From: Deltaproteobacteria bacterium
GTDB lineage: Bacteria; Myxococcota_C; UBA6777
DNA length: 48,970 bases
Direction of reading: 5' to 3'
Assembly: GCA_002731275.1 (NCBI GenBank)
Contig: PCBK01000166.1
Span: forward strand, 1-48,970
The translations under genes and the position numbers were made by a program. The notes beneath the pieces are model-generated. The model was not told where the DNA came from. It made no database searches and saw only the letters and a list, made by a program, of their open reading frames with translations. Positions 31,270 through 43,853 of the stretch are shown here, one piece after another; the first letter of the stretch is position 1, and the number at the start of each line of letters is the position of its first letter.

Positions 31270-32667
31270 ATGACAAATATCAACAGAACTGGACGTAGCA
31301 GTTGGTCAAATGTCCCCACTTCACCAAATGATGCACCTGCGGACAACAGCAACAACACCCCAGCTCCAGATTCATCATTTTCATCCAATAACGCTGGCTG
31401 GTCTCGTATGAGCCGCTCCTCCACAAATGTCGCGCCCCGCCTTCGTTCAGACGTCGCAAACGGTAAATTCATCCGCCGCGGCGAAAAGGGTGAGTGTGCA
31501 CGAGAGCTACAACAATTACTCGTACGCAATGGCATCAACGTCACAGTTGACGGAGACTTTGGTCCCGGAACAGAGAGAGCGTTGAAGCAATTTCAGGCCT
31601 CCAAAGGGATGCAAGCCGATGGTATTGTCGGCCCCAAGACCCTCGAAGCGCTGCTCGGCAACAACACAACGACGCCTGTTGACAACGGAAATAACGGCAC
31701 AACGACTCCTGTTGACAACGGAAATAACGGCACAAACGCAGCCAATTACCCAGCGCTTGCCTCCGCCCTCGATAACGGCAAGACGTTGCGCAGAGGCCAA
31801 AAAAGTGAAGCCATTCGCGAAATGCAAACGCTCTTGGGGATCACAGCAGATGGAGACTTTGGACCCGGGACGATGCGTGCTGTTCGCGCATTCCAAGCAG
31901 CAAATGGATTGACCGCAGACGGTATCGCCGGTCGTAACACGTTGCGCGCCCTTCTCGGTGGCGGTGGTAGCGTCAATAACAGCGATCCAGTCGATGTCGG
32001 CGACTTTGCACCAAGCAAAGGTCGTGCCGCAGGACGCTTCTCAACCAGCCGTTCTGCTCGTGAAGAACAAGCCATGGCCCTGTTGAAGGCCAACAACTAC
32101 ACACCACGTGAAGGCGAAGTCATCGCGATCCAAATCGACCAAGACCCACCTCCAGGGAGCGCCTCCGGCTCCGCAAAGTACAGCTACCTGCGCAAATACA
32201 CAGGTCAAACAGCGGTCTTCAAATACCAAAATGGTCGCCTCGTTGAGCAGCTCGAACCACAACGTTCAGCCTCTCACCCTGGTCAAAAATCCTCTGGACT
32301 CTCCCCTGACGTGACAGGTGACGGACGTGGTGACGTCGCACACCTGCCCGCAGGTATCTACAATTACTATACCCGCCCCAACTATCGCGGTCGCTTCAAC
32401 CCCACAAACGACTTCCAAGGGTATCGCGATAAAAACCAGGACGGCACGATCAGTGGCAGCGAGAAAGATCGCAAACACACCATCACCGCCATTCAGATCC
32501 ACAAAGGCAACAGCAGCAGCCCCTCCAGTATCGGCTGTCAAACCATGCCCCCCACAGATTACAACAAATTCAGCTCTGCTGTTCGTCGCGCGGCGAGCGG
32601 GCAAAGCAAATTCACCTACCTCCTCGTGCGTCGTCCCAACGACACATACGGTGAAAACGCAATCTAA
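31270..32667 (+). CDS. PG-binding / YkuD-like protein, paralog 1
   Basis: 465 residues. The ATG at 31270 is preceded by GAGGAAAG. N-terminus MTNINRTGRS (paralog 3 begins MTNIKRADRT), then a Ser/Asn-rich stretch. Two peptidoglycan-binding type 1 domains: about 65-128 (RRGEKGECARELQQLL..VDGDFGPGTERALKQFQ) and 165-230 (RRGQKSEAIREMQTLL..ADGDFGPGTMRAVRAFQ). The C-terminal domain (about 245-465) contains AIQIH, then SSIGCQTMPP, like the H...S-x-G-C active-site pattern of YkuD L,D-transpeptidases though without the full motif; an EF-hand-like loop DKNQDGTISGSE precedes the His. Known YkuD enzymes cross-link or cleave wall peptides through that Cys. There is no signal peptide, so export must use another route or lysis. 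Two more copies lie downstream. Confidence 0.8.
   Translation: MTNINRTGRSSWSNVPTSPNDAPADNSNNTPAPDSSFSSNNAGWSRMSRSSTNVAPRLRSDVANGKFIRRGEKGECARELQQLLVRNGINVTVDGDFGPGTERALKQFQASKGMQADGIVGPKTLEALLGNNTTTPVDNGNNGTTTPVDNGNNGTNAANYPALASALDNGKTLRRGQKSEAIREMQTLLGITADGDFGPGTMRAVRAFQAANGLTADGIAGRNTLRALLGGGGSVNNSDPVDVGDFAPSKGRAAGRFSTSRSAREEQAMALLKANNYTPREGEVIAIQIDQDPPPGSASGSAKYSYLRKYTGQTAVFKYQNGRLVEQLEPQRSASHPGQKSSGLSPDVTGDGRGDVAHLPAGIYNYYTRPNYRGRFNPTNDFQGYRDKNQDGTISGSEKDRKHTITAIQIHKGNSSSPSSIGCQTMPPTDYNKFSSAVRRAASGQSKFTYLLVRRPNDTYGENAI
31665..31730 (+). repeat. 33-bp tandem repeat in the inter-domain linker of paralog 1
   Basis: Units 31665-31697 and 31698-31730 differ at one base and code for the TTPVDNGNNG linker twice. 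Recent in-frame duplication between the two PG-binding domains. Confidence 0.85.
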
Positions 32668-32972
32668 TCCGAGCTGCTCGGAGAGATACATCTGGCTCCT
32701 TTTGTCAATCTACTCGATTGCACGAGTCAGCGACTTCACGGAAATATTAAAATAAAAACCCTCAGGGTCCACACGAATCTCCACATTGTCTCTTTCCCAA
32801 ACACGATGTGTTGTGCGACGCTGCAGGGTTTTTCTATATCTCCCCCCGAACTTTCCCATGCCTCCACCCGTACTCCCCACAACACAAGACACACCCATCA
32901 CAAAGAGGAAGTGTTTCCCGCCTGTCAAATGACTCGCCACGCTCCCCACCAGAGATGATAAAGGATCTGATC
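32668..32972. other. Intergenic region before the RNA-repair gene
   Basis: 305 bp. An open frame runs through it in phase with the RNA-repair gene but has no ribosome site or credible start. A minus-strand frame (32710-32949) is also open but unsupported. I see no terminator or clear promoter; AT-rich at 32735-32760. Confidence 0.4.
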
Positions 32973-35900
32973 ATGAGCAAGAAAACGCACACCAAGCTTC
33001 GCACCAGTCGAGAGGTTATCTACCAAATTATCTGGGATGAACGTCTCCACACACATGAATACTCCATCGAATATGAAGAGCGCTTCTCTGGCATGAGAGA
33101 GATCCCAGTCGTCGACTTTGAACCTGACGGCGAGATCCCCTGGCACCGGATCTGGCGGATCAAACAGGGGGGCACGATCGTGTGGGACCGCAAAGCACGT
33201 ATCGATAGGATAGGACAAAGCCAGCACAACACCCCCACACACTCCACAAAGTCCGTCACCAAGCCCCCAAAACGGCGGGTCTCAACCAAGACCAAACAAC
33301 ACACACCAGCACACCAAGCGCCCTTCCTACCACAGCCCACCTATCAATTTGACCCCATACACAAACAGTGGCAGCCCCTGTCTTCCACGGAGAGCCGCAC
33401 CAGCATCCCGGCGCCCTCCTCTCTGCGTATTGTCAGCTTCAACGTCTTGATGGACCCAGAAGCCTGTTACCACACCCCCACGCGGCAGCTCCACCTCTTC
33501 AACACTCTCAAAGAGGCACAAGCCGACATCATCGCGCTACAAGAAGTCACCCCGACATTCTTGCAAACGCTGCTCACACAAGAGTGGGTACGTGGACAAT
33601 ATTATTGTTCCGATGAACCGGAAGGAACACAGCTCACACCGTATGGACAGATCATCCTGAGCCGCTACCCCGTCGCGTTTGAGCGACAAGAATCCAACTC
33701 TCCCAAACGCATTCTTTGTGGTGAATGGCACACCAAAGAAGGAGCGATCGAGATTGCGGTCGTCCACCTCACGAGCAATCGCGCGAAGCAACCGGCCAAA
33801 AAGAGATACCTTCAACTCGATCATCTGCTCGAAGAACTCGAACGACACAGCGACGTCAAGACACGGATCATTCTGGGTGATTTCAACATCATGAGTGAGC
33901 AAAGTGACCCCGACAGCATCGAACGATTCATGCTCGAAGGCTACGAAGATGTCTGGCACACCCTGCATCCAAAAGACAGCGGTGAGACCTTCGATCCGAC
34001 GCGCAATGCGCTCGCAAAACAAACCAGTACAACAGGTCAAAAAGCACGATACGATCGTATCTACGTCAACAGCGAAGCCTATCATCCCCACACCTGCACA
34101 CGCCTCGGCATGGCTCCAATTCCACACAAAGAAAAGCTCTATTTATCCGATCACTATGGGCTCCTCTGTCAAATTGAGGCAAGCACAGAGACGAGCACGT
34201 CCTTCTCGGAGATCCCACCCACCCTCAAAACGGCGGTCGCGCTTATTCCACCAGAGTCCGTCTGGGAACCCATCCAGGCGCTGCGCGCGCAATACGACAG
34301 GCGCTTCACGCGCTGGATGCCTCATATCACTGTGTTCTTCCAATTTGTCCCAGAAGAACACTTTGACGACATCGCGCTCGCACTCCAACAACTCCTCGAA
34401 GAGACCGGTCCTTTCGAGATAATGTTCAAAGAATTTCGCAGCTTTCAGCACGCCAAACAACACACGATCTGGCTCCACCCAGAGATCCATCCACCCGATC
34501 GTCTCAAGGATTTTCACGCCGCGTTGCTCAAGATCTTCCCCCAATGTAAAGAGCGGATCGCAGGTCGTGAAGAGTGGCATCCACACCTCTCGATCGGACA
34601 GGTCAGCGCGAGTAAAGCCCCTGCTGTTCTGCGCGCACTTCAACAATCATGGCAACCTATCCACTGTACGATCGACACACTCAGCCTTATCCGACGGGAA
34701 AAAGACGCGCCTGCCTCCGTCCATACTCAACTTCCCCTTCAACCAACACCTTCGGGACACTCTTCGAAACATCAGGTGGTCAAGCTCCCACAAACATTAC
34801 AAGAGGTCCTTCAACAACACACCCTCTACACCACAGAAGACACGAGCAAACAGACACTGCTCGCCCAAACACATGCCTGTGTCGCGTCCTGGAATGAGCA
34901 ACACACAAGCACCCCTCTACAGGCTTACTCTATCGGTTCAACCGGCTTACAAGTCGCGCTACCACAGAGTGATGTTGATGTGTTGTTGTGTTGTTCGAAG
35001 CTCACAAAGCCCAAAGAGGTCTTTCAGGCGATAGGATCGGCATTGCGAGGGCATACACAAGAACTGGTCGAGCGCAGTGTTGTCGACGCCCAGATCCCCG
35101 TGTACAAAGCCTACTTCGAAGGAACAACACTCGACATTCAACTCGCTCATCTCCCACAGCAATGGCGTGAAACAGCCCCTGAGAGCTGGCGTACACTGGA
35201 TATCACAGCGCTGACACCTTCGCAGCGTTTGATGGTACAGAGCCTCATGGATCAACACACCCTACGAACCTATCTCGACGAACAAAACGCACGTCCGCTA
35301 CTTTACCTCCTCAAGGCATGGGCGCGCCGACATCAGCTCGACAAACAGGCGTGGGGAGGGATCGGCGGGATCGCCTGGGCGATCCTCGCCGTCGCCGCCC
35401 ACAGAGCATGTCAGCTCTCTCCAGAGATGCCACTCCTTCAGCAAGTAAAGAAGACGTTCGGCTGGCTCGCAGGTGACGCCCTCAAAGCAGGCATCTCACT
35501 CGAAGGTATCCCAGAAGAGACTTCATCAGCGATCGCGATCTGGACCCCCACAGCCCCCTACGTCAACAGCACACGACAGGTCACACACAACACCGCCAAA
35601 CAACTCAAAAGAGCCTTCACATCAGCTCACCAGATCGGAGAAAAGGAGAGCTCAGAGCAAAACTACTGGACCGCTCTGTTCACAGACCTCCCAACATTAC
35701 AAGGTGACATCACTGTCACGCTCACGCTCGACACAGCCTCAGCACTCGCACAACACAACACCATCGGTGCGCTCGAAAAACGCGCGCTCTCCTGGCTCAA
35801 TACGCTCGAAACAACTGCACACATCGAATGCCAATCCCTGCACTTCACCACTCACCCAATGTGGTCCGTACAGATGACGTTTATCAACACACATCCAAGC

Positions 35901-36008
35901 GAATCCATCGATACAAACGCGATCCAGGCTGCACTCGAAACACTTCAACAGGATCTCGACACTTCACTGGGCCAACAACCCCATACCACCTTCCACTACA
36001 CGTTTTAA
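32973..36008 (+). CDS. Four-domain predicted RNA-repair protein (MJ1316-EEP-2H-PAP fusion)
   Basis: 1011 residues from the ATG at 32973 (AAAGGA seven bases upstream). Four domains: residues 8-78 are an MJ1316/DUF504 RNA-end-recognition domain (IIWDERLHTHEYSIEYEERF, IPWHRIWRIKQGG, VWDR). 150-402 are an endonuclease/exonuclease/phosphatase (EEP) domain with N157, E191 (LQEV), D303/N305 (GDFN) and D393/H394 (SDHYG). 420-580 are a 2H (LigT-like) phosphoesterase with H451-x-T453 and H538-x-S540. 600-1011 are a nucleotidyltransferase with GS(655-656), D667-x-D669 and D721, plus AWGGIGGIAWAILAVAA, which matches the central region of eukaryotic-type poly(A) polymerases. All catalytic residues appear intact. 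Known chemistry: 2H domains open 2',3'-cyclic phosphates, EEP enzymes remove 3' nucleotides or phosphates, and nucleotidyltransferases re-add nucleotides. Inference: repairs RNA cut by ribotoxins. Similar domain combinations have been predicted in RNA-repair systems. Cytoplasmic. It lies between PG-binding paralogs 1 and 2. Confidence 0.88.
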   Translation: MSKKTHTKLRTSREVIYQIIWDERLHTHEYSIEYEERFSGMREIPVVDFEPDGEIPWHRIWRIKQGGTIVWDRKARIDRIGQSQHNTPTHSTKSVTKPPKRRVSTKTKQHTPAHQAPFLPQPTYQFDPIHKQWQPLSSTESRTSIPAPSSLRIVSFNVLMDPEACYHTPTRQLHLFNTLKEAQADIIALQEVTPTFLQTLLTQEWVRGQYYCSDEPEGTQLTPYGQIILSRYPVAFERQESNSPKRILCGEWHTKEGAIEIAVVHLTSNRAKQPAKKRYLQLDHLLEELERHSDVKTRIILGDFNIMSEQSDPDSIERFMLEGYEDVWHTLHPKDSGETFDPTRNALAKQTSTTGQKARYDRIYVNSEAYHPHTCTRLGMAPIPHKEKLYLSDHYGLLCQIEASTETSTSFSEIPPTLKTAVALIPPESVWEPIQALRAQYDRRFTRWMPHITVFFQFVPEEHFDDIALALQQLLEETGPFEIMFKEFRSFQHAKQHTIWLHPEIHPPDRLKDFHAALLKIFPQCKERIAGREEWHPHLSIGQVSASKAPAVLRALQQSWQPIHCTIDTLSLIRREKDAPASVHTQLPLQPTPSGHSSKHQVVKLPQTLQEVLQQHTLYTTEDTSKQTLLAQTHACVASWNEQHTSTPLQAYSIGSTGLQVALPQSDVDVLLCCSKLTKPKEVFQAIGSALRGHTQELVERSVVDAQIPVYKAYFEGTTLDIQLAHLPQQWRETAPESWRTLDITALTPSQRLMVQSLMDQHTLRTYLDEQNARPLLYLLKAWARRHQLDKQAWGGIGGIAWAILAVAAHRACQLSPEMPLLQQVKKTFGWLAGDALKAGISLEGIPEETSSAIAIWTPTAPYVNSTRQVTHNTAKQLKRAFTSAHQIGEKESSEQNYWTALFTDLPTLQGDITVTLTLDTASALAQHNTIGALEKRALSWLNTLETTAHIECQSLHFTTHPMWSVQMTFINTHPSESIDTNAIQAALETLQQDLDTSLGQQPHTTFHYTF

Positions 36009-36235: not shown

Positions 36236-37531
36236 ATGCGCCACGTAGACAGCACCGCAGATAGCCAGAGAGCTCTCGAAGCACAAAGAAGACAGGCTGA
36301 AGAAGCTCGCCGTGCGGCTGCAGCAGAAGCTGCAAAGGCTGCAAAAGAGGGACAGAAACCTGCTGCGGATAACAACAAGCCTCTCGACACAAACAACTTC
36401 ATTAAAGACCAGGCACAACCTGATGTCACCACAGCAGGTCCCAAAGCAGGTCAACAGCTCGCCAACCGCATCCACCAAAATGCGATCCTCAAACAAGGCA
36501 ACAACGGCCCCGAAGTACAAGAACTTCAGCAGCTGCTCAACCGCTCCGGCGCCAACCCTCCTCTCGAAACGGATGGAAAATTTGGTCCCAAAACAGAGCA
36601 GGCCCTGCGTCAATTTCAACAAACCTCCGGCATCAAAGTTGACGGCAAGTTTGGACCACAGAGCCTCGGTTCACTCGCCAAGACAACAGGCAGCGCGCAC
36701 ACCTCGACAGTGCCCAGCCAACTCAGCCCAGCAGGTCAGAACAAAATGACCCAGGCGCTCGGCAACCCAGCAGCCGCACCAACAAACCCAAGCGCACCAG
36801 CCGCAGATCCCAGCCAACCCGGCAGTGTCGACGCGACAAATGGTCCTACCGCGACAGGTAGCGACTTCGCCCCCGAAGCAGGCCGTGCAAATGGGACCTT
36901 CGCTGGCTCCAAAGCTGAACGCGAGCAACAAGCTGAAGAGCTCCTAAAAGCCAACGGTCAATGGCCACCCAAAGAAGGCGAAACCTACGCCATCCAAATC
37001 GATCAAGACCCACCTCCAGGGAACGCCTCCAGCAACGATAAATCACGTTACGTTCGTGCCTACACAGGCCAAACAGCGGTCTTCAAAGCGGTCAACGGTA
37101 AATTGGTCGAACAACAAGGTCCCCTCCGTTCCGCCGCACACCCTGGTCAAAAGTCCTCCGGCCTCTCCCCCGACGTCACAGGTGATGGACGTGGTGACGT
37201 CGCCAACCTGCCCGCAGGTGTTTACAAATACGGTACACAAACCAACTACCGCGGTCGCTTCAACCCCACGAGCAACTTCCAAGGGTATCGCGACCAAAAC
37301 CAGGACGGCACGATCAGCGGCAGCGAAAAAGATCGCAAGCACACCATCTCAGCCATCCAGATCCACGCGGGGAGCAGCAGCAAACCTTCGAGTATCGGTT
37401 GCCAGACACTGCCTCCCTCCGACTACAACAAGTTCCGCTCAGCGGTCCGTAACTCCGCAAGTGGAAACAGCACCTTTACTTACTTGCTCGTCCGTCGTCC
37501 AAACGACCGACATGGTGCAAACCCCATCTAG
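36236..37531 (+). CDS. PG-binding / YkuD-like protein, paralog 2
   Basis: 431 residues. The ATG at 36236 has AGGAGG five bases upstream. Residues 8-45 form an Ala/Glu/Arg/Lys-rich helix, probably a coiled coil, which the other copies lack (QRALEAQRRQAEEARRAAAA). One PG-binding domain (about 85-150; QGNNGPEVQELQQLLNRSG, VDGKFGPQSLGSL). An Ala/Pro linker leads to the C-terminal domain (about 205-431), which is nearly identical in its core to paralogs 1 and 3: DQDPPPGNAS, YTGQTAVF, SSGLSPDVTGDGRGDV, NYRGRFNPT, an EF-hand-like DQNQDGTISGSE, and IHAGSSSKPSSIGCQTLPP with the presumed His/Cys pair. No signal peptide. The next copy starts 82 bp downstream, so 2 and 3 are probably co-transcribed. Confidence 0.8.
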   Translation: MRHVDSTADSQRALEAQRRQAEEARRAAAAEAAKAAKEGQKPAADNNKPLDTNNFIKDQAQPDVTTAGPKAGQQLANRIHQNAILKQGNNGPEVQELQQLLNRSGANPPLETDGKFGPKTEQALRQFQQTSGIKVDGKFGPQSLGSLAKTTGSAHTSTVPSQLSPAGQNKMTQALGNPAAAPTNPSAPAADPSQPGSVDATNGPTATGSDFAPEAGRANGTFAGSKAEREQQAEELLKANGQWPPKEGETYAIQIDQDPPPGNASSNDKSRYVRAYTGQTAVFKAVNGKLVEQQGPLRSAAHPGQKSSGLSPDVTGDGRGDVANLPAGVYKYGTQTNYRGRFNPTSNFQGYRDQNQDGTISGSEKDRKHTISAIQIHAGSSSKPSSIGCQTLPPSDYNKFRSAVRNSASGNSTFTYLLVRRPNDRHGANPI

Positions 37532-37612: not shown

Positions 37613-38758
37613 ATGACAAATATCAAACGCGCAGATCGTACAAGAACAGTCACCCCACCCAAGCCAGAGACACCAAAGACACCGGAACGTCAGGACAACA
37701 CGAGAACAGCCGATCGTAGCACCTTCGAAGCAGCGCGTGCCACAGGCACCAACACAGACGCACCCACCATCGGCGCTGGCCTGAGAGATCGCGCAGAGAA
37801 TGGTAACAGCCTCCGCATGGGCGCTTCTGGACAAGATGTCCGCGAAATGCAACAGCTGCTCAACCGCGCAAACCCAGACAATCAGATCACTGTCGACGGC
37901 CAATATGGTCCTCAAACACAGCGCGCTGTCCGCTCCTTCCAGGAAGCCAATGGCCTGTCCACTGACGGTATCGCTGGACGCAACACACTCGGCGCGCTGC
38001 TCTCTACAGCAGGTGTCGCCCAAACGCCCCAAACGCCTCAACAACCTGGCGCTGTCGATGGAACGAACGGGACAACCGCAGTAGGTGGCGAGTTCGCTCC
38101 TGAAGCAGGTCGCGCCAATGGGACCTTCGCTGGTACACAAGCACAACGCGAACAACAAGCAGAAGAGTTGTTGAGAGCCAACGGACAATGGCCCCCAAGA
38201 GAAGGCGAAACTTACGCAATTCAAATCGACCAGGACCCACCACCAGCGAGCGCTTCTGGTAACGATCGCTCCCGCTACCTGCGCTCCTACACAGGACAAA
38301 CAGCGGTCTTTCGTGCTGAAAATGGCCGCCTCGTCGAACAACAAGCGCCCCTTCGTTCAGCCGCACACCCCGGCCAAATGTCCTCCGGCCTCTCCCCCGA
38401 CGTGACTGGAGACGGACGTGGCGATGTCGCACACCTTCCTTCAGGTGTCTACGAATACGGCACACAAACCAACTATCGCGGACGTTTCAACCCCACAGGT
38501 GATTTCCAAGGATATCGCGACCAAAACCAGGACGGTACGATCAGCGGCAGCGAAAAAGACCGAAGACACCGCATCACAGCGATCCAGATCCACGCAGGGA
38601 GCAGCAGCCGCCCCTCCAGCATCGGTTGCCAAACCATGCCCCCCTCCGATTACAACCAATTCAGCTCAGCGGTTCGTAACTCCGCAAGTGGAAACAGCAC
38701 CTTCACTTACTTGCTCGTCCGTCGCCCCAACGAAGCACACGGCGCAAACCCCATCTAA
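37613..38758 (+). CDS. PG-binding / YkuD-like protein, paralog 3
   Basis: 381 residues. The ATG at 37613 has AAGGA seven bases upstream. The N-terminus begins MTNIKRADRTR and is basic, Thr/Pro-rich. One PG-binding domain (about 62-127; MGASGQDVREMQQLLNRA, VDGQYGPQTQRAVRSFQ, GIAGRNTLGALL) resembles the second PG-binding domain of paralog 1. The C-terminal domain (about 155-381) shares the family core, including the EF-hand-like DQNQDGTISGSE and IHAGSSSRPSSIGCQTMPP. No signal peptide. It sits directly after paralog 2 and ends in a possible bidirectional hairpin shared with the convergent gene. Confidence 0.8.
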   Translation: MTNIKRADRTRTVTPPKPETPKTPERQDNTRTADRSTFEAARATGTNTDAPTIGAGLRDRAENGNSLRMGASGQDVREMQQLLNRANPDNQITVDGQYGPQTQRAVRSFQEANGLSTDGIAGRNTLGALLSTAGVAQTPQTPQQPGAVDGTNGTTAVGGEFAPEAGRANGTFAGTQAQREQQAEELLRANGQWPPREGETYAIQIDQDPPPASASGNDRSRYLRSYTGQTAVFRAENGRLVEQQAPLRSAAHPGQMSSGLSPDVTGDGRGDVAHLPSGVYEYGTQTNYRGRFNPTGDFQGYRDQNQDGTISGSEKDRRHRITAIQIHAGSSSRPSSIGCQTMPPSDYNQFSSAVRNSASGNSTFTYLLVRRPNEAHGANPI

Positions 38759-41323: not shown

Positions 41324-43000
41324 TCACCAACGCCACCCTCCCCCCAGTGAGAAGGACGCCACACCACGCGCCACCCAATCCCCCCCAAGATCAAACAGCC
41401 TCACACCACCGTCGATATCCAGCCGCACAAACCACGTCGAAGTCAGGTGAAGCTGCCATTGGAGCATCCCACCCGCTTCATACATCATCGACAAGATCTG
41501 TTCATCCTTGTTGGGAGGTTGTTCGAGGGACTGTAAGAGAGGCGCAAAACGCAGCCGCGGCCCCAAAGACAACTCCCCCCAGCGGCCATGCCAAAGACGC
41601 CATCCCAACGAGACATCCACAGGTAAAATGTGCGCAGTGTACCCAAACGTCGACGACAACTGTGACGTCCCGTACTGATACGCGAGACGTATCCCCACAT
41701 GCATCGCGTCCCATCCTATCGACTCAAGAGGAAAACGGAAGGTCAACCCCACCCCCTGTGTCAACATACCTTGCGATAATTGCCCGACACCAAGCCTGTA
41801 ATGGACACCAAAAGAGAAGCCCTCTTGCTGCCCCTCGAAAGGCACCCATAGACCGGCCTCAGACGAAGACGTCGTCCCTCTGATGGTGCCCTTCTTCCAG
41901 TATGCAACACGACGCCCGATCATACGTAAACGCAGCTTTTGACCGCGTCTTAACGAGATCTTGGAGGAGAAGATCCCCCCCTTTCGTCTCCATTGTAAAA
42001 CATAACGCCCCGGTGACAAGGCGATCACACCAGCGCGGCCTTTACTCTTATTCAGCTCCGCGAGGAGTACACTCTTCGCTCGATCCCACACAAAGAAGTC
42101 CCCTGCGACACCTGCGCGCAACAACAACCATGAGCGTGGGCGTGAGAGTGACGTCAGGACCAACCGACCATACCCGGACAAGCTCTTGCGAAAGTGCGCT
42201 CGCTGTGGCCCATGGACCGACAAGATCGTCCGTTCAAGGGAGCGGAGATAGGCGTAGCGATAGATCTCTTCGAGTGTGACGTAGCCATCTCCATTGCGGT
42301 CTGCTGCGCCACGTAAGCCAGAGACGAGATAGTGGGTGAAGACACCGCCACGTAGCTCCGGGTCTTCGTGGGCGCTCTCCTTGGCACCTGTCGCTGAGAT
42401 CAGGACTTCTCCCTTGATCGTCGGTGAGATGTGGAGCATCGGGATCGGGAAGGTCTTGTTGCGATGACGCAAACCCTTCAGGGTCGTCAAGCGACCACTC
42501 TCACATGCGTCGATGATCGCCAACCGGACATCTGCGCCAGAAGCTCGCAAAAAAGAACGCAGTTCACGAAAAGAGAACGTCGAACGTCCGAGAAGTAGCT
42601 GGCCTTTTCGCGCATGTCCAGAGTAATACACGAGGAGCATGATGTTGTGTTGTGTGCCCCTCTTCTTGCGGATACGCTGGATACGTGTCTTGATCTTCTT
42701 CATGATCCGGCGCAACGCGATATCCGAGACACCTCTGGCCAGCCATATGTTGCGCTTTCTGGCACCTGACGCCTCAAGCAGCACATGCTTCATCTTACGA
42801 GCGTCAGATTCGGCAAATTGGAGCGCCTTGGTCCGCCGCCCCCCATCGTTGTTCCCGATCAACAAGGCGAGTGAAGTGGTCCGCACAGACGCAGCCGCCC
42901 ATACATCGCCTGCCCACAACAAGACGAACAGACACACAGACAACACAAAGAGGTGATTGTATCGACAACACCATGGTTTTCGAAGAGCGCCTTTTCTCAT
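41324..43000 (-). CDS. Secreted caspase-family protease with predicted beta-barrel tail
   Basis: 558 residues. The ATG at 43000 has AAGG seven bases upstream. Signal peptide about 1-36 (cleavage near VWAAAS). Caspase-like (peptidase C14) domain about 41-260: LALLIGNND first strand, catalytic H129 in YYSGHA and C166 in IIDACESGR. An EF-hand-like loop D234RNGDGYVTLEE245 follows, as in calcium-dependent metacaspases. A beta domain lies in the middle (PGRYVLQW). The last 180 residues alternate in the manner of an outer-membrane beta-barrel (GLTFRFPLESIGWD, VDVSLGWRLW, ELSLGPRLRF, ending SFSLGGGWRW with a C-terminal aromatic). So the protease would sit in the periplasm or on the surface, tethered to the outer membrane (inference). 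Last gene of the sigma/anti-sigma run, 31 bp after the anti-sigma gene. Confidence 0.82.
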   Translation of the reverse strand: MRKGALRKPWCCRYNHLFVLSVCLFVLLWAGDVWAAASVRTTSLALLIGNNDGGRRTKALQFAESDARKMKHVLLEASGARKRNIWLARGVSDIALRRIMKKIKTRIQRIRKKRGTQHNIMLLVYYSGHARKGQLLLGRSTFSFRELRSFLRASGADVRLAIIDACESGRLTTLKGLRHRNKTFPIPMLHISPTIKGEVLISATGAKESAHEDPELRGGVFTHYLVSGLRGAADRNGDGYVTLEEIYRYAYLRSLERTILSVHGPQRAHFRKSLSGYGRLVLTSLSRPRSWLLLRAGVAGDFFVWDRAKSVLLAELNKSKGRAGVIALSPGRYVLQWRRKGGIFSSKISLRRGQKLRLRMIGRRVAYWKKGTIRGTTSSSEAGLWVPFEGQQEGFSFGVHYRLGVGQLSQGMLTQGVGLTFRFPLESIGWDAMHVGIRLAYQYGTSQLSSTFGYTAHILPVDVSLGWRLWHGRWGELSLGPRLRFAPLLQSLEQPPNKDEQILSMMYEAGGMLQWQLHLTSTWFVRLDIDGGVRLFDLGGDWVARGVASFSLGGGWRW

Positions 43001-43031: not shown

Positions 43032-43853
43032 CTACTCACGCTTCAGCACAAAATGAAGCAGGTACTCACAAAGTCGCTCGCCTTTTTTGTCTTTGGCCTC
43101 AGGTGAAACATGTGAATCCCTTGTGATCGCCTCCCCAGCACGCGGTAATACTTTGAGGAGCGTCTTCAGCGATCGAGCTCGCTTCGAGAAGCAGGCCCAC
43201 ACCATCTCATCTCCCTCAGCTTTGCCCTCGACCTCAAGGCTCCCAGAGAACCAATGCTCCTTCTCGGCCACCACACGAAGGCTGCGCGCATCACCATTCG
43301 AGGGGTACAAAGGCGTCCACTGGCCTTTTGGGTCGCGGTGTACGATATACAGGTAGCCAGCATACGCCCAACGGTATCCGATGCGCAAAAAGTCGCCCTC
43401 TCGAAAGCTCTCCTTCGAGCGCACATGAAGGATATGTTTGCCTCTCTTGCGAACGATCAATAAGGCCGGGTGAGGTGTGTCCCGGTCACTCTTGATCGCG
43501 AATCTCTTCACAGGCTTGCCTCCCACTGAAAAAAACTGTTTGTCCAACCCAAAAGAGACAAACAACAGGAGCCCACAGGCTGCCGCAGCAGCTCCCCACA
43601 CAGCAGGACGTTGTAGCCACTCCCACCAGCTCTGCCAGGGAGAGGCGGCCGGCCACTGTGGCAAGACGACCTCCGAGGCACGTGCGCTTGCCATTTCGAG
43701 CGCACGAAGATCCTCCTGACAGCGAGGACAAGACGCGATATGTCGCTTTGATTGTTCGTGTTCATCAGGAGACTCGCCACCAAAAAAGTGAAGGTCTAAC
43801 CGATACTCGGACAAACAGGCTTCTACTTGCATATTCTCTCTCTCATCGATCAT
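43032..43853 (-). CDS. zf-HC2 anti-sigma-like membrane protein with DUF4384-like domain
   Basis: 273 residues from the ATG at 43853 (AAAGG eight bases upstream; an ATG at 43832 after GAGAGAGA is nearly as good). The N-terminal zinc-binding anti-sigma domain has H38-x3-C42-x2-C45 (HIASCPRC). One membrane helix (about 85-102, WGAAAAACGLLLFVSFG) follows. The periplasmic domain (about 115-240) looks like DUF4384: FREGDFLRIGYRW, GYLYIVHRDPKG, PLYPSNGDARSL. Family knowledge: zf-HC2 proteins hold an ECF sigma factor inactive until an envelope signal. It probably binds the sigma factor at 44093-44629. It is separated from that gene by a 239-bp gap containing an inverted-repeat element, and followed by the caspase gene. 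Confidence 0.82.
   Translation of the reverse strand: MIDERENMQVEACLSEYRLDLHFFGGESPDEHEQSKRHIASCPRCQEDLRALEMASARASEVVLPQWPAASPWQSWWEWLQRPAVWGAAAAACGLLLFVSFGLDKQFFSVGGKPVKRFAIKSDRDTPHPALLIVRKRGKHILHVRSKESFREGDFLRIGYRWAYAGYLYIVHRDPKGQWTPLYPSNGDARSLRVVAEKEHWFSGSLEVEGKAEGDEMVWACFSKRARSLKTLLKVLPRAGEAITRDSHVSPEAKDKKGERLCEYLLHFVLKRE

Follow-up and report, generated by a model that had tools for sequence, protein, structure and literature searches.

Most of the RNA repair systems studied so far heal and seal broken ends, and few of them contain a polymerase. In the tRNA ligase pathway of fungi and plants, Trl1 supplies ligase, kinase and a 2H cyclic phosphodiesterase, and Tpt1/KptA removes the 2'-phosphate. 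In addition, Burroughs and Aravind in 2016 reportedly predicted systems for RNA repair in which MJ1316, 2H and ligase modules occur. Here we analyse a gene at 32973..36008 on the + strand of a contig of 48,970 nucleotides (PCBK01000166.1) from a Deltaproteobacteria bacterium, the whole of which is called the window below. Its product joins an MJ1316 domain, an endonuclease/exonuclease/phosphatase (EEP) domain, a 2H phosphoesterase and a poly(A) polymerase (PAP) in one chain. This fusion protein is probably the 3'-end-healing arm of a bacterial RNA repair pathway that depends on a ligase.

By its domain content, the fusion falls among the MJ1316/2H repair systems that have been predicted. It shares their domain vocabulary, and we claim no priority for the four-domain architecture or for the linkage to ligase and kinase. 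Trl1 holds ligase, kinase and 2H in one protein, whereas here 2H shares its chain with EEP and PAP, and ligase and kinase are apart. Compared with the known healing-and-sealing systems, the fusion adds EEP and a canonical PAP, and leaves kinase and ligase to other proteins. The Pnkp1-Rnl-Hen1 complex is alike in end healing and in ATP-dependent ligation of cut RNA, but it consists of those three parts only, without MJ1316, 2H, EEP or PAP (PMC4411300). According to excerpts of a report on Deinococcus, DRB0098-DRB0100 form a radiation-induced operon with HD-Pnk and a ligase-like protein (PMC1997131), which resembles the HD-Pnk lying alongside a ligase-type protein on another contig of the window's genome (C127) and upstream of the cyanobacterial fusion. 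In the same excerpts, the third member of the operon is a macro-like protein, ligation was not detected, and a PAP-2H-EEP-MJ1316 protein is not described. We found no biochemical study of the four-domain fusion in the literature.

Domains and catalytic residues of the fusion protein

The open frame at 32955-36008 (+) has no internal stops. AAAGGA, a Shine-Dalgarno-like motif read directly in the sequence at 32960..32965 (+), precedes ATG 32973 by 7 nucleotides, and this ATG is therefore taken as the likely start of a protein of 1011 residues with the order MJ1316-EEP-2H-PAP. Residue numbers of the window protein (P0001) begin at frame position 32955 and not at this ATG. The first-pass annotation, made from the letters alone, had read four domains with intact catalytic residues in this frame. 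Both statements hold, since MJ1316, EEP, 2H and PAP_central each score above their Pfam cut-offs and each of the 14 textbook catalytic positions that were tested is invariant in an alignment of 62 sequences, in which the others are 24-32% identical to the window protein.

Only 51 of 1017 positions are invariant in this alignment, and the agreement with the catalytic positions has a P of about 1e-19. The EEP catalytic residues and both 2H histidines are invariant, as are G661, S662, D673 and D675 of the nucleotidyltransferase (NTase), and D727 is D in 60 sequences and E in the other 2. The first 2H motif is HIT in the window protein and HxN in 45 of the 62 aligned sequences. Homologues were collected by two sequence patterns, of which the first lies in MJ1316 and the second surrounds LQE of EEP; E197 was partly selected because it sits in the search pattern, and the other 13 catalytic positions, including those of 2H and PAP, lie outside. 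Chance motif matches or an artefact are rejected by the Pfam results, the residue invariance and the folds together.

The MJ1316 domain (33000..33191, +, residues 16-79) is a predicted reader of RNA 2',3'-cyclic-phosphate ends. PF04457 matches it with E 9e-15 and 55.5 bits against a cut-off of 26.3, and with E 2e-15 in the genome search. Modelled alone by AlphaFold (model maf721e95df26), the domain reached a pLDDT of 85.4, and no clear match to this model was found among solved structures, the best Foldseek hit having E 0.5 and the best VIA alignment Z 3.4 with a root-mean-square deviation (rmsd) of 5.3 over 72 aligned residues. MJ1316 has been described as a recogniser of RNA 2',3'-cyclic ends that, in eukaryotes, is fused to domains of RNA repair (PMC6514570).

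The EEP domain (33417..34187, +, residues 155-411) matches Exo_endo_phos (PF03372) at residues 160-400 with E 8e-16 and 58.9 bits against a cut-off of 24.5. It carries the catalytic N, E, H, D, N, D and H in the motifs SFNVL 161, LQEV 195, H271, GDFN 308, D367 and SDHYG 398. TDP2 is its nearest solved fold (residues 156-411, Z 27.3, rmsd 2.3, 237 aligned by VIA-align), and the 62-sequence profile also matches TDP2 with E 4e-21. Nocturnin, an EEP enzyme that takes the 2'-phosphate off NADP(H), is among the fold matches as well (Z 23.4, rmsd 2.5, 232 aligned). By these model comparisons TDP2 is closer than Nocturnin, and the specificity of the EEP domain is not readable from the fold.

The 2H phosphoesterase (34248..34706, +, residues 432-584) matches 2_5_RNA_ligase2 (PF13563) with E 2e-39 and 135 bits against a cut-off of 27. 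This 2H-type domain has two H-x-[TS] motifs, HIT at 457-459 and HLS at 544-546, and the profile matches the 2H protein YjcG (2d4g) with E 7e-7. The product of bacterial 2H enzymes carries a 2'-phosphate. Where 2H domains are linked to RNA ligases, they have been described as making 2',3'-cyclic ends ready for ligation (PMC5512222).

The PAP part is, as modelled, a complete canonical poly(A) polymerase of the eukaryotic type, with NTase, central and RNA-binding domains. The NTase or palm domain (34785..35174, +, residues 611-740) has the pattern GS..DxD..D, at GS 661, DVD 673 and D727, and PAP_NTase matches residues 611-734 with E 3.5e-5, slightly under the Pfam cut-off. It is followed by the central domain (35175..35690, +, residues 741-912), where PAP_central (PF04928) matches residues 783-910 with E 3e-11, and by the C-terminal RNA-binding domain (35691..36005, +, residues 913-1017), which is low in sequence conservation and is delimited by the alignment with yeast PAP and by the profile match. 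The 62-sequence profile matches human PAP gamma with E 8.6e-68, and the match reaches PAP gamma residue 455. Moreover, model residues 611-1017 superpose on yeast PAP 25-512, including its RNA-binding domain, with Z 27.5 and rmsd 3.4 over 396 aligned residues (VIA-align). A eukaryotic-type PAP had been recognised here at first reading, and this identification stands; its RNA-binding domain had not been separated, and the segment AWGGIGGIAWAILAVAA that had suggested it lies in the central domain. Compared with eukaryotic canonical PAP (1f5a, 2q66, 4lt6), the domains are the same three, but identity is about 18%, and the PAP part here comes from a bacterium and follows three RNA-end domains in the same chain. 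Some enzymes of the PAP fold (CID1-like) add U.

The superpositions on yeast PAP and TDP2 bear out by structure prediction what had been proposed for these two segments. The AlphaFold model of the whole window protein has a mean pLDDT of 86.7 and a pTM of 0.53, and the placement of the domains relative to each other is therefore unsure.

Distribution of the fusion and its linkage to RNA ligase and kinase genes

One scan of genome contigs gave at least 270 tblastn-confirmed relatives, of which 80 were kept, and these fall in Actinomycetota, Cyanobacteriota, Myxococcota and Bacteroidota. By these matches the four-domain fusion is widespread in bacteria and not unique to the window's genome, so that the architecture, first regarded as remarkable in itself, is in fact common. 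Of 386 genomes that were sampled as relatives, the same six have PF04928 and PF04457, each time in one frame, and both domains are therefore confined to the fusion in this sample. The confinement of PAP_central to the fusion bears on the source or destination of eukaryotic poly(A) polymerase. In a quick tree (LG+G4), which has long branches including the window row and serves for phylum grouping only and not for the window's exact place, the rows group by phylum. Searches of phage collections with protein and DNA gave no match, and viral contigs gave one EEP-only match; a phage or viral origin is rejected on the lack of any phage match by protein or DNA.

Partial and doubled forms were also seen in the larger sets. 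An MJ1316-2H protein in a frame of 293 residues, without EEP or PAP, is encoded on the Streptomyces exfoliatus plasmid NZ_CP108239.1 (L019:4280-5158) and is an exception to the confinement of MJ1316, and another locus (L020) holds a broken-looking remnant. Further exceptions are MJ1316-only proteins of about 85 residues, encoded in several genomes of Myxococcus and a relative (L216-L220); they share 70-75% identity with the N-terminus of the Myxococcus fusion and lack the rest of it. One myxobacterial genome has the four-domain gene twice in tandem (G188:C333:3359-9778).

The neighbouring genes of these relatives are informative about function. In Actinomycetota, the gene directly upstream of the fusion codes for a protein with an RNA ligase half and a P-loop kinase half (PF09414 with E 3e-34, AAA_33 with E 4e-21), and its stop codon abuts or overlaps the fusion start. 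Both halves are present at 39 of the 45 actinobacterial loci, at three more the kinase half alone was detected, and three have neither. A ligase-kinase gene is located upstream in the same way on one deltaproteobacterial contig (L062). At 4 of 15 cyanobacterial loci the order is ligase, HD-Pnk and fusion, as separate genes, and in four myxobacterial genomes of one genus (G185, G187, G221, G248) a ligase and kinase pair is divergently adjacent to the fusion. Three arrangements in three phyla speak for a shared function, rather than shared descent of the neighbourhood alone. This repeated linkage to RNA ligase and kinase backs the role at broken RNA ends that the first-pass annotation had proposed. 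Its description of a self-contained repair machine has to be dropped, as the protein is without ligase and 5'-kinase; relatives encode both next door, and the candidates in the window's genome lie elsewhere.

These candidates comprise a ligase and a 5'-kinase. On contig C127 an HD-Pnk gene is followed by an Rnl2 ligase gene; among solved structures, the match for the ligase is the trypanosome editing ligase, and the matches for the kinase of HD-Pnk are 4jst and 4gp6, deposited as 'metallophosphoesterase', which we take to be the Clostridium Pnkp kinase domain. Contig C4 encodes a ligase that shares 57% identity with the Mastigocoleus operon ligase over 258 residues, and contig C60 encodes KptA. 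The genome also has two class II PolyA_pol-family genes, on contigs C114 and C37. Within the family (5 genomes), a full-length HD-Pnk is found in all four genomes with the fusion and is missing from the one without it. In three of these four fusion-bearing genomes, HD-Pnk adjoins a ligase that shares about 60% identity with the operon ligase of Actinomycetota. Encoded in trans, a full-length HD-Pnk is also present in the Cytophagales genome, in both Polyangia and in 8 of 11 unlinked cyanobacterial genomes, one more of which has it split; these counts are small, and the cyanobacterial one is uncorrected for background.

Other repair genes were noted in passing. A second RNA repair system of the window's genome is encoded on contig C167 (L198:246-4426), with a complete Pnkp (kinase-phosphatase-ligase) and a Hen1-like methyltransferase gene directly upstream, and on contig C3 (L113:6923-8449) an RNA_ligase domain is joined to a putative tRNA-binding domain. 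In another genome (G164, L203:5358-8216), HD-Pnk lies in a frame of 953 residues and overlaps a ligase that is 56% identical to the one on C4. The first 600 residues of this frame have no Pfam match, and the long N-terminal part may have been added by a frame that extends too far.

A proposed RNA repair pathway and its alternatives

For the healing of 3' ends we propose the following order of events. A broken RNA ending in a 2',3'-cyclic phosphate would be held by MJ1316, and the cyclic phosphate would then be opened by 2H, most likely to a 2'-phosphate. EEP would take off the remaining phosphate or trim damaged nucleotides to give a 3'-OH, which the PAP module would extend, perhaps replacing lost nucleotides. 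Finally, an ATP-dependent RNA ligase and a separate 5'-OH kinase (HD-Pnk or the kinase half of a ligase-kinase protein) would seal the ends, and KptA could strip a leftover 2'-phosphate at the junction. Each reaction and the order of the steps are what we infer; likewise, the substrate may be RNA damaged in conflict, and the unlinked ligase and kinase of the window's own genome may be the partners. A canonical PAP in one chain with a reader of RNA ends and two phosphoesterases, and with linkage to ligase and kinase genes in three phyla, makes up a defined and testable pathway, and the Streptomyces and Nostoc homologues come from cultured organisms, so direct testing is possible.

Several observations weigh against this repair pathway. 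TDP2 acts on 5'-tyrosyl adducts of DNA or RNA, and because it is the nearest fold, any role of EEP at 3' ends is conjectural. The window itself contains no ligase or kinase gene, and the neighbours of the fusion there, genes with peptidoglycan-binding domains, are unrelated to repair; the linkage in the window's genome is co-occurrence only, on separate contigs. Moreover, none of six Myxococcaceae/Archangiaceae genomes with the fusion has HD-Pnk, a linked ligase is mostly missing in these families, and other Myxococcota have HD-Pnk without the fusion. Hence, the pairing is not obligate.

One alternative is RNA quality control, in which broken 3' ends would be cleaned and tailed so that exonucleases destroy the fragment. 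Poly(A) tails in bacteria generally promote decay, EEP and PAP would suit a trim-and-tail enzyme, and the Myxococcaceae carry the fusion without a detected HD-Pnk. However, the linkage of RNA ligase and 5'-kinase in three phyla indicates sealing, and two class II PolyA_pol-family genes are already present in the window's genome, so we regard quality control as unlikely. Signalling of the 2-5A type, in which the NTase makes an oligonucleotide signal that EEP and 2H destroy (as do OAS, PDE12 and AKAP7), is the least probable explanation considered here. NTase, EEP and 2H are indeed the enzyme classes of the animal 2-5A pathway, and there is a weak likeness to CBASS cyclases, a cyclase model at E 0.007 being the only PADLOC-DB match of P0001. 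Against this, P0001 has no NCBIfam cyclase match at E 0.001, and one homologue reaches 32 bits against a cut-off of 200. The profile matches canonical PAPs with E 1e-68 and the CD-NTase CdnC with E 1e-6, a PAP RNA-binding domain is present, and the neighbours are ligase and kinase with no effector. Identity as a CD-NTase is rejected, the similarities being weak only. A search of seven proteins against PADLOC-DB gave no convincing defence match, the best (E 6.8e-6) pairing a HEAT-type model with a HEAT-repeat protein, and a known anti-phage defence family is rejected on this result. The first-pass annotation had also inferred that the protein counters ribotoxin or anticodon-nuclease damage and complements an immune-rich genome, for which this search and those of the phage and viral collections gave no backing.

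DNA end repair has also to be considered, with a TDP2-like EEP and HD-Pnk cleaning DNA breaks and the PAP-like domain working as a terminal transferase. Against it, only RNA can end in the 2',3'-cyclic phosphate that MJ1316 and 2H are expected to target, the ligases belong to the RNA_ligase and Rnl2 types, and the polymerase is PAP-like. In its favour, TDP2 is the nearest EEP structure, and HD-Pnk of Deinococcus is tied to radiation resistance by the title of a study cited in PMC9146567 and lies with a ligase in the radiation-induced operon above (PMC1997131). On balance, we hold repair of DNA ends to be slightly more improbable than quality control.

Within the RNA repair pathway, the polymerase may fill gaps, PAP re-adding nucleotides lost at the cleaned break before the partner kinase and ligase seal it. 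We offer this tentatively, as a possibility that is rather doubtful at present. If true, bacteria would have an RNA counterpart of excision, resynthesis and ligation, and the canonical PAP fold would have a setting other than mRNA. The question raised is whether RNA is resynthesised ahead of sealing.

Surroundings of the fusion gene in the window

G+C of the fusion gene is 0.53-0.55, the same as in the surrounding DNA, and recent foreign DNA is rejected on this agreement. No non-coding RNA or tRNA was found within the window when these were sought. Three paralogous genes with peptidoglycan-binding domains flank the fusion (31270-32667, 36236-37531 and 37613-38758), and their 3' halves are 75-80% identical in DNA. 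The fusion sits between the first and the second copy, as if inserted in a tandem array. Further downstream, a caspase-domain protein with a weak EACC1-associated match is encoded at 41324-43000 and adjoins a weak DUF4384 protein at 43032-43853 on the same strand.

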